A stretch of DNA of 64,000 nt from Bdellovibrionales bacterium (GTDB lineage: Bacteria > Bdellovibrionota > UBA1018 > CAIMNF01). Numbering within the stretch: position 1 is the first letter of the stretch; each line of letters starts with the position of its first letter. Shown one piece after another: positions 16,661-47,361 of this stretch. The translations under genes and the position numbers were made by a program. The notes below the pieces were generated by a model. It worked only from the letters and a program-made list of their open reading frames with translations. It was not told the origin of the DNA and did not search any database. The stretch covers positions 124,001 through 188,000 of the forward strand of contig CANNBJ010000006.1 in assembly GCA_947502835.1 (NCBI GenBank), read 5' to 3'.

Positions 16661-16686
16661 AACCGGCCCCTTTGAATGGGCATGAG

Positions 16687-17598
16687 TCATGGTCCCGACT
16701 TCACCAAGACAGTGTTATGGTACCTGACGTAAATCCAAAGGTGATCTACAAGTCTTTCGATTTTTTTGGTTGTGTTCCAGGTTTTTCGAAAGAGTCTGCT
16801 GATGTTTGCCCGTAGCATGGCGCAGGTATGATTCAGCGAGAATAGAGGGTCAAACTTTTGTTTTTTCAGTTCTCCTTGGCCCGTGACCGCGCCGCGTGCT
16901 CCCTTGTGGCGAATATGCTTTGCGTTCGGAAGGTGCTTCTTCAAATATTTCGGATAGTGGGGATTCTCATCTGACTCGCACACCGATTCAGGGTGAAGGA
17001 TCGCCTTCAGGTTATTGAAAAGTTGATCCCAACCCTCGGGGCGCTCATCTTTTCTTTTTCCATATTTTCTTCGCGCGACCTTCGCAAGTACCCCCTTTGG
17101 AGGCATCCGTTTCACCTGAAAATCAAGGATTTCGCGGCTCTTGTTCTTAACAGCCAAAGTCACGCTCACGGGTTTGCATTTTGTGTGTTCGGAGGTCTCC
17201 AAATCATCGAACTGAATGTGCCGGAGTTTCGACTCTGAGAACCGCTCCTCCAACCATTCCTCATGATCTACCTTGGCCCGAGCCCCGAGAACCTTGAGTT
17301 TTCGACCGATGGTCTTGCGATTCGAATCAAGCAGTATCGCGGCCCTTCTTAGTGTGACACCCGAGGCAAGAAACAAAAAAAGCCGCTGATTGATCTCGCG
17401 CCGGTGTTGTCGATAGTCGGGATCAAAGGTGGCGTTTGAGAATTGGATCTTGCAAACCCGGCATTTGAAACGCTGGATATAGCGGCGATCGCAGAGCCGG
17501 TAGAAGGTCCCTTTTTTGGAGACTCGTCCGGAAACCATACCTTCAAGATGCCTCGATTGATGCTCAGAACAGTCCAAATTCACGCAATAACGTTTCAT
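16687..17598 (-). CDS. IS1-like transposase
   Basis: This 303-residue transposase-like protein opens with a zinc-finger region (C5, C10, then FKCRVCKIQF), followed by a helix-turn-helix (LFLFLASGVTLRRAAILLDSNRKTIGRKL). The RNase-H-type core has FDDLE as the first acidic site and SDENPHYPKYLKKHLPNAKHIRHKG as the second. The C-terminal LNHTCAMLRANISRLF with KTWNTTKKIERL aligns in style with the last block of IS1 InsB. The reading frame is intact and uninterrupted, so the element may be functional. The third catalytic acid is uncertain. A hairpin covers its start codon. Confidence 0.72.
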   Translation of the reverse strand: MKRYCVNLDCSEHQSRHLEGMVSGRVSKKGTFYRLCDRRYIQRFKCRVCKIQFSNATFDPDYRQHRREINQRLFLFLASGVTLRRAAILLDSNRKTIGRKLKVLGARAKVDHEEWLEERFSESKLRHIQFDDLETSEHTKCKPVSVTLAVKNKSREILDFQVKRMPPKGVLAKVARRKYGKRKDERPEGWDQLFNNLKAILHPESVCESDENPHYPKYLKKHLPNAKHIRHKGARGAVTGQGELKKQKFDPLFSLNHTCAMLRANISRLFRKTWNTTKKIERLVDHLWIYVRYHNTVLVKSGP

Positions 17599-17614
17599 GC
17601 ACCGAGATGGTGCA
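17598..17614 (-). promoter_or_regulatory. Hairpin at the transposase start codon
   Basis: TGCACC-GAGAT-GGTGCA is a perfect 6-5-6 inverted repeat lying immediately upstream of, and touching, the ATG. Such structures can limit transposase translation. There is no good Shine-Dalgarno sequence in the region, and the stem would occupy the ribosome-binding window. Confidence 0.4.
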
Positions 17615-17693
17615 GAAAAAGTGCCGCGAATTCAGAAAATAGGCTGATTTGGGAAAATGTGTGTGCCCACTCAACGGGACCATTTTGCTGAAA

Positions 17694-18806: not shown

Positions 18807-18868
18807 GATGGAGTCACTCTAGCAGAGGTGCAGGGGCCCGACAAGGCGGGACAAGAGCAAGTGACCGG

Positions 18869-18978
18869 GGAGTCTTTGGATTGAGGCGGTCTTGGTCGAC
18901 TCTCGCGGGTCAGGATAGACGAAAGCTAGGCCGCAGGGTGCGGCTCGGAGACCAAAACCGCTTCAATCCGAAGAGTGT
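18869..18978. repeat. Palindromic element with conserved 52-nt core (copy C)
   Basis: A core at 18898-18949 is bounded by GGTC/GACC and contains the perfect hairpin GCCGCA-GGG-TGCGGC. It is flanked by 29-base arms that pair in 23 positions. The same 52-nt core, with 45 of 52 identical and no length change, is the centre of the element at 47164-47355. Here the arms have mostly different sequence but remain complementary, and the IS-type ends are absent. It occupies most of the 209-base gap between the lipocalin gene and mrp. Confidence 0.7.
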
Positions 18979-19015
18979 CTTGGTCGCCCGCAGATTGGCC
19001 CTTTTCGGCAGTCAG

Positions 19016-42162: not shown

Positions 42163-42180
42163 TCGAATCAACGCTCCAAT

Positions 42181-42333
42181 TGGCATCTTTGAATGGGCAT
42201 GGGCTTCGGGCTTGTGGATGCGAACCCCTTTGATTCTTTGAGGTTTTGCCGACTCTGCTCTGAGACTGAAACCACAAGAATCACAGTGAGTTACCTACCA
42301 AAATCAAAACGCCATACCCATACAAAGATGCCA
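42181..42333. repeat. MITE-like palindromic element A (153 bp), IS-type ends
   Basis: The 22-base ends match in 20 positions. The left end contains GGCATCTTTGAATGGGCA, which differs from the left end of the IS at 16.7 kb at only two of 18 bases. The whole element is a degenerate palindrome of two 68-base arms (44 of 68 pairs kept) around a 17-base centre. That centre keeps GACTCT and GCTCTGAGA, the two edges of the 52-nt core seen at 18.9 and 47.2 kb. It carries no gene. Confidence 0.68.
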
Positions 42334-42375
42334 TTTCGAGACTTGTTGCGTCAAAGTGTGCTAGCGTCCTGATCC

Positions 42376-47050: not shown

Positions 47051-47163
47051 TCTACCGCGTTTGCCATTTTCCGGAAACTATCCCTTCACGAATTGGCCGC
47101 GATCTTTGAGCGCGCCCAGGATGGGCTGCCGCGAAAAGTACCGGATGTTCGAGGGGAACTCAC

Positions 47164-47355
47164 TGGCATCTTTGAATGGGCACGGACCTAAGTGGATTAG
47201 CCAGGAGCTATTTGGAATGATTGAGTTTTGGTCGACTCTCGCGAGACAGGATTGGCGCAAGCGAGGCCGCAGGATGCGGCTCGGAGACCAAAATTCAATC
47301 ATTCCAAACAGCTTCTCGTGAGTCCATTGATGTCCATGCCCATTCAAAGATGCCA
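47164..47355. repeat. MITE-like palindromic element B (192 bp) with IS-type ends and 52-nt core
   Basis: Two 70-base arms (47164-47233 and 47286-47355) are inverted copies with 59 of 70 identical. Their outer ends contain GGCATCTTTGAATGGGCA, close to the IS end at 16665. The 52-nt centre (47234-47285) matches the core at 18898-18949 in 45 of 52 positions and holds the hairpin GCCGCA-GGA-TGCGGC. It sits seven bases after the VWA stop, between two minus-strand genes. The hairpin could form in DNA or RNA. Confidence 0.75.
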
Positions 47356-47361
47356 GCTGGC

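Follow-up and report, generated by a model that had tools for sequence, protein, structure and literature searches.

A 64,000-nt stretch of Bdellovibrionales DNA (hereafter, the window) contains two hairpin elements whose arms differ in sequence and still pair, and the question they raise is what keeps them complementary: selection on a folded RNA, or a process acting on the DNA itself. A preliminary description of the locus had favoured selection, given a conserved 52-nt core and arms that had changed while retaining their complementarity. Here, we take the core, the arms, and the outer ends of the element in turn and consider what may maintain each of them.

Element copies in the window

The two cores, at 18898-18949 (copy 1) and 47234-47285 (copy 2), share 45 of 52 bases in register, as had been claimed, and 9-16 of 52 when the same two segments are shifted by -3 to +3. 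The 112-nt units that hold them fold at -58.8 and -59.1 kcal/mol, respectively (z -6.0 and -8.7), and none of 200 shuffles folded as well as either unit; the minus strands of both units also fold better than shuffles. The observation that the arms differ and are nonetheless self-complementary holds for both copies, copy 1 being the less perfect, with 22 Watson-Crick and two G-U pairs among its innermost 26 arm pairs, and copy 2 consisting of a 52-nt centre between 71-nt arms that are 85% complementary. Both full copies do lie between minus-strand genes, copy 1 between an ApbC/Mrp-type NTPase gene and a lipocalin gene, and copy 2 between a SOUL protein gene and a VWA protein gene.

Copy 1 comprises inner arms and a core on the plus strand at 18868-18979 (93.2 bits and E 1.4e-19 with the broader covariance model R2; fold z -5.96), and the terminal-repeat scan of the window found no recognisable outer terminal repeat there. 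Its core (18898-18950, plus strand) contains the P2a hairpin (18909-18920), the P3 hairpin (18930-18944), and GGAG (18947-18950), with a P3 loop, AGGGT, that departs from AGGAY and a P2 helix with one C-T break. Copy 2 is a real element, but its extent had been drawn too small: the full MITE-like unit is 194 bp long (47163-47356, plus strand), is bounded by terminal inverted repeats with 0 mismatches (47163-47184 and 47335-47356), and has 93-95% identity with three other copies, on C3, C7, and C2 of this genome. Within this unit, the inner arms and core occupy 47204-47315 on the plus strand (R2, 106.3 bits, E 1.3e-22) and the core 47234-47286 on the same strand, with P2 at 47238-47242/47261-47265, P2a at 47245-47256, P3 at 47266-47280 (loop AGGAT), and GGAG at 47283-47286. 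A third copy, noted earlier at 42249-42265, proved to be a related element with its core deleted, but it reaches well beyond that segment, spanning 42180-42334 (plus strand) with both terminal repeats present, at 42180-42201 (one mismatch) and 42313-42334 (three mismatches). In all, the window holds five terminal-repeat matches against 0.02 expected.

The core plan recurs between other ends in a second family, type B, and a type B core relic (ends CACTGTTG) lies at 47105-47154 on the plus strand, adjoining the terminal repeat of copy 2, which is of type A. The orthologous place in G011, a genome of the same genus, holds an intact type B. A type A element directly beside a type B core, in place of the type B right arm, is seen at two loci, namely 47105-47163 of the window and L013 (G000:C4:344485-344565, where G000 is the window's genome), an arrangement that may be read as an insertion preference for such palindromes or as recombination at them.

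A dispersed repeat family

The copy 1 region matched 33 places in the 2.73-Mb genome (E<=1e-3), which is not chance, and the copy 2 region matched 52 in its own genome and 24 in each of the same-genus genomes G008 and G011. A covariance-model scan, proposed earlier as a check, recovered many intergenic copies in which pairing is kept via double changes. Model R1 gave 43 matches in G000, 24 in G011, 20 in G008, and 28 in G028, which belongs to another family, counts that include a few weak matches or opposite-strand duplicates; six other genomes of the genus gave 1-6 each, bringing the genus to 9 of 12 genomes and the order to 15 of 55. R2, built from 45 sequences, reached 25 of 368 genomes and 12 of 181 genera of the phylum, figures that are lower bounds because only 10 candidates per genome were scored, and the weak matches among them include three single-contig genomes of a distant family. 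Of 24 stretches with the core in named records, 23 come from the Bdellovibrionales MAGs RE-15aug16-115 and REEB465; the remaining one, in a Chromatiaceae MAG (L055), was rejected as a chance match in coding-like DNA with the arms missing.

No Rfam 15 family reaches its gathering score in the window, and a search relaxed to E 10 gave chance long-hairpin matches only, the best being to a family of miRNA hairpins that scored far under its cut-off; the core pattern had 0 matches in viral contigs. Near-identical copies are present at unrelated loci and, judged from sequence, the elements are a dispersed repeat family of Bdellovibrio-like bacteria.

The counts per copy given below refer to a curated set of 96 full-length matches of at least about 68 bits (36 from G000, 17 from G008, 16 from G011, and 27 from G028), which leaves out two 170-nt copies as well as partial and weaker matches; alignment A1 contains 27 of 32 copies, with identical, hybrid, and 170-nt copies excluded. 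The two 170-nt copies, L033 (G000:C1:170381-170550) and L182 (G011:C52:9881-10050), both have a P2a arm that is enlarged by the same 58 nt and carries extra hairpins, and their loci are non-orthologous as far as the flanks show. Elsewhere, the interval between two oppositely placed copies seems inverted between species (G000:C4:379161-379685 vs G008:C106:5079-5416), and a third copy within that interval (379387) is a hybrid whose left half comes from the neighbouring copy.

Outer ends and probable movement

Copy 2 and many other copies carry terminal inverted repeats of ~22 bp that are common to a 1,021-bp insertion sequence (IS) of the genome and the window. The outer-end pattern (three mismatches or fewer) has 57 matches in G000 and 0 in the reversed control, and two pairs of outer ends lie exactly 1,021 bp apart, each enclosing a 303-aa transposase gene. 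The IS copy of the window, also 1,021 bp, spans 16663-17683 (no strand assigned), with terminal repeats at 16663-16684 and 17662-17683 as in the elements, and its transposase gene (16693-17598, minus strand) encodes a protein that is 78% identical over 302 aligned residues to that between the C4:88354/89374 ends. These comparisons establish that, in the genome's main subfamily, the outer ends correspond in sequence to the inverted termini of the 1,021-bp IS. The transposase of this IS falls short of the NCBIfam IS1 model NF033558, scoring 28 bits (E 1.9e-6) against a cut-off of 100, and is best called distantly IS1-like; the transposase has no Pfam family above cut-off and no PDB match. Its protein has 12 matches in G000, the window IS among them, and the IS is found in 20 of the 55 genomes of the order.

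The type A unit (copy 2), at 194 bp, has no transposase gene of its own and may be called MITE-like because its outer ends are those of a resident IS; for the same reason, movement of the repeats in trans by the IS transposase is most likely. All three copies on C7 (L010) are missing from the orthologous G011 contig. No target-site duplication was seen by eye, the empty sites being too diverged to place the ends, and a transposase between clustered copies was likewise sought by eye among the ORFs there, with none seen. The core has no match inside the 12 IS loci; in G048, the transposase has 19 matches and the core none, and in G002, G003, G004, and G010 core matches are present and no match to the IS transposase was found. 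Since the IS lacks the core and the two do not track each other, we infer that the core is a separate module placed between different ends. Two palindromes consist of the ends only, without a core: L252 (G000:C1:134721-134805, 85 bp) and L253 (G000:C2:494068-494131, 64 bp).

In being short, intergenic, and without a gene, in having the ends of a resident IS, and in their presence or absence at orthologous loci, these elements resemble bacterial MITEs and other IS-derived non-autonomous repeats. They differ from MITEs in holding an asymmetric three-way-junction core that is missing from the IS and recurs with other ends, and in their long, nearly perfect arms.

The core

The core plan reads GAC, P2 (CTYGC/GCRAG), GA, the P2a hairpin, GAAA, the P3 hairpin, and a final ..GGAG. 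As aligned here, the 53-nt core is a three-way junction with two ANGAY-looped hairpins (mostly AGGAY), a conserved GCGAG..GAAAGC internal loop, and a GGAG joint. P2, P2a, and P3 covary between genera, the sequence changing between families with pairing kept; P3, for example, is GCCGC/GCGGC in the window's genus and AAAC/GTTT in G028.

The rate at which the core changes in place was taken from 10 orthologous pairs at 7 loci, which were chosen for alignable arms and exclude replaced or inverted pairs. In these, 21 of 534 core positions had changed (3.9%; 7 of the 21 fall in one pair), compared with 76 of 588 in the arms (12.9%) and 808 of 3931 in the flanks (20.6%), the right flank alone accounting for 303 changes in 1997. 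By Fisher's test, the core differs from the arms (p 6e-8) and from the flanks (p 3e-26), and the arms compare with the right flank at p 0.19. These alignments demonstrate that the core persists from genus to genus and that, at the same locus, it evolves several-fold more slowly than the sequence around it. Gene conversion between copies could also slow the core, but orthologues share locus-specific core variants, which argues against homogenisation; the core of G000:C3:320722, for instance, is equal to that of G011:C28 in 54 of 54 positions, while 11 of 59 arm positions have changed. Mismatches in the core helices (six of the 96 copies could not be parsed) are G-U in 30 cases and A-C in 5 (p 2e-5), a lean that speaks for RNA over DNA, although 19 of the 30 G-U cells come from a single position in related copies of one genus, without which the ratio is 11:5 (p 0.21). 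Selection on the core is well supported by the orthologous pairs.

The arms

Across the window's genus, the inner 26-28 arm pairs are nearly perfect, those at ~29-50 are poorly paired, and the ends are well paired again. In the 27-copy alignment, 93.2% of cells are paired and 30 of 43 pairs show double changes, a level reached by 0 of 500 shuffles, and pairing falls to 34-49% when the partner is slid. The arms evidently diverge between copies yet stay complementary, as aligned.

What this pairing means is less straightforward. If selection acted on an RNA strand, G-U should be favoured in every genome. Once the 10 of 96 copies with less than 80% Watson-Crick arms had been dropped, arm mismatches in the window's genus (61 of 69 copies) were G-U in 51 cases and A-C in 26 (p=0.006), so that some selection on a folded plus strand may act there; in G028 (25 of 27 copies) they were 29 and 30 (p 1.0), which favours neither strand. 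In the mixed alignment A3, 642 arm cells had changed on both sides and 31 on one, a ratio that leans because A3 was fitted to the structure. Furthermore, in the orthologous pair G008:C74 and G011:C172, the core is inverted, with 51 of 52 positions equal in the flipped frame, while the arms (28/30 and 29/30) and flanks (59/60 and 59/60) are unflipped; three other inverted pairs are ambiguous and were not counted as clean (G000:C4:288158/G008:C15, G008:C51/G011:C52, and G000:C5:32336/G008:C32). True paired changes in place also occur, in three pairs between G000:C2:503080 and G008:C58. Loss of arm complementarity with the core retained, named beforehand as the pattern that would speak against selection on structure, is seen in a few copies (G000:C4:379387 and G011:C30:11388), and most keep their pairing.

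Compensatory change and loop inversion are described as footprints of template switching during replication (PMC8794818). The hairpins treated there resemble ours in having perfect stems, compensatory changes of several bases at once, and inverted loops; ours differ in belonging to a mobile repeat with arms of 25-45 bp. The earlier argument that pairing maintained despite change marks selection on structure thus stands for the core, which changes slowly in place, and is not clear for the arms, where the equal G-U and A-C counts of G028, the 642:31 excess of double changes, and the core flip with the arms in place make it unsafe. DNA template switching would fit the arm pairing at least as well as selection does, and DNA copying probably accounts for at least part of it.

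The copies of G028 listed as L103-L122 and L188-L193 are palindromes of about 300 bp with copy-specific second arms. There, the palindrome continues past the conserved asymmetric segment, AAAGACGTCCTCGCC standing opposite AAAGACATTCCGCAGCC; the second arm pair is unlike between copies (median identity 0.40, ungapped), and in 18 of 19 anchored copies the second arms are at least 80% complementary (8 of the 27 copies could not be anchored). Insertion of the core into the loop of a pre-existing hairpin, which would account for unrelated arms, was considered as a general rule and rejected because the arms of most copies have a common consensus.

Genomic placement

All 96 curated copies are intergenic (gene overlap of 20 nt or less), at loci that are 77% coding by a crude gene caller. 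In G028, 17 of 26 copies have convergent neighbouring genes and one has divergent ones; in the window's genus the numbers are 17 and 11 of 62. The gene on the 3' side of the element is encoded on the opposite strand in 42 of 65 cases in the window's genus and 22 of 26 in G028, and the gene 5' of it is co-oriented in 42 of 82, a count made with earlier, less accurate G028 gene calls. These counts show a preference for the 3' ends of genes that is strong in G028 and weak in the window's genus, with no fixed sense orientation. REPs are known to stabilise mRNA 3' ends; plain 3'-end stabilisation needs only a hairpin and leaves the conserved loops unexplained.

Weighing the explanations

The elements might be purely selfish MITEs in which core and arms are movement signals only, with no benefit to the host, a reading that we find possible but doubtful. 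It would account for the ends held in common with the IS, for the dispersal and the empty sites, and for the decay of some copies, but not readily for the same core between other ends (type B, G028), the IS loci without a core, the genomes with one and not the other (the core in G002, G003, G004, and G010, the transposase in G048), or the conservation of the core in place. That selection on pairing maintains the entire 112-nt hairpin, with its arms, as a structured RNA, the view taken at the outset, seems unlikely to us: the covariation reached by no shuffle, the 51:26 lean of the window's genus, and the compensatory pairs in place (G000:C2:503080 vs G008:C58) argue for it, and against it stand the 29:30 count of G028, the preponderance of double-sided changes in A3, the core flip with the arms in place, and an arm rate close to that of the right flank. 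Movement as a REP-like element by a RAYT (Y1) transposase is very improbable. Y1_Tnp genes of RAYT size, up to 12 per genome, occur in 18 of 23 genomes of the order, all four many-copy genomes included, but none of 15 Y1 loci holds the core, copy number does not follow Y1 number, and another kind of IS has the same ends. REPs are 20-40 bp long with GTAG at one end (PMC3733652, PMC8266576); REP/BIME and RAYT systems are, like the elements here, intergenic and strand-asymmetric palindromes, but ours are 110-300 bp long, with no GTAG and no adjacent Y1 gene, and REP membership was rejected on the missing tag, the length, and the Y1 loci.

The core may instead be a CsrA/RsmA-binding RNA module, in which the two GGA-loop hairpins ~22 nt apart would hold one dimer and the copies would be either a sponge or binding sites within host transcripts. 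Among the 69 copies of the window's genus, 63 have a P3 of the form C-AGGAN-G (57 parsed by script and six read by eye), most loops of the far copies retain GGA (by eye), and the two 170-nt copies bear extra hairpins. One CsrA is found in each of 21 relatives, the G008 protein aligning well with E. coli CsrA, which we counted in favour of CsrA; being in 21 of 21, and also in genomes without the element, its presence is useless as a discriminator. The P3 loop of the genus equals the CsrB repeat, CAGGA(U/A/C)G, as given in PMC7652899, where very stable stems are described as possibly unfavourable. CsrB/RsmZ-type RNAs are alike in having CAGGAYG in hairpin loops, two close together (PMC7652899), and differ in that the elements here are dispersed DNA repeats, not one sRNA gene, with many G028 loops lacking GGA and CsrA binding putative. 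In G028, GGA is present in 13 of 27 P3 loops and 17 of 27 P2a loops, with at least one in 22 of 27 copies, and the constant part is A-N-G-A; in addition, one extra loop of the G011 170-nt copy is CATGAG, and the orientation of the elements to genes is not fixed. Because the G028 loops are so often without GGA, we regard CsrA binding as improbable, and we would give similarly low weight to the fuller version in which a two-loop core that binds a dimeric regulator, with CsrA as the candidate, has spread over Bdellovibrionota genomes between the ends of different IS, its dozens of intergenic copies making up a dispersed and evolvable sponge or regulated 3' ends on template-switched stems.

A proposed three-layered element

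The explanation to which we incline, with a little more confidence than doubt, is a non-autonomous, foldback MITE-like repeat of three layers, in which a useful core is flanked by arms kept paired largely by DNA copying. At the outer ends, an IS transposase would move the repeats in trans. Much of the arm pairing would be DNA-level correction, in which replication switches template at the palindrome and rewrites one arm from its partner; such switches would occasionally also flip the core. The core, being conserved across genera and slow to change at its locus, likely has a use where it sits in the form of a folded single strand, which is most likely RNA, within transcripts that extend across the 3' ends of genes. 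The likeness of the two loops and their spacing of about 22 nt point to a binder that is a dimer, and the core may present them to a dimeric RNA-binding protein or stabilise the 3' end. The orientation of the elements to genes and the core flips are not as expected from a fixed RNA role. We think, nonetheless, that the core is probably a folded RNA module, single-stranded DNA being less likely, which is useful in place and carried by IS ends.

The repeat family is apparently undescribed, as it is absent from Rfam 15 and literature searches turned up no paper on it. A single object here separates covariation that apparently comes from DNA copying, in the arms, from conservation that apparently comes from selection, in the core. 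Because covariation is commonly accepted as proving that an RNA is functional, a natural example that combines the two kinds, in dozens of copies, makes a useful test. If the core does bind CsrA, transposition would have spread a sponge for this regulator through the Bdellovibrio group.
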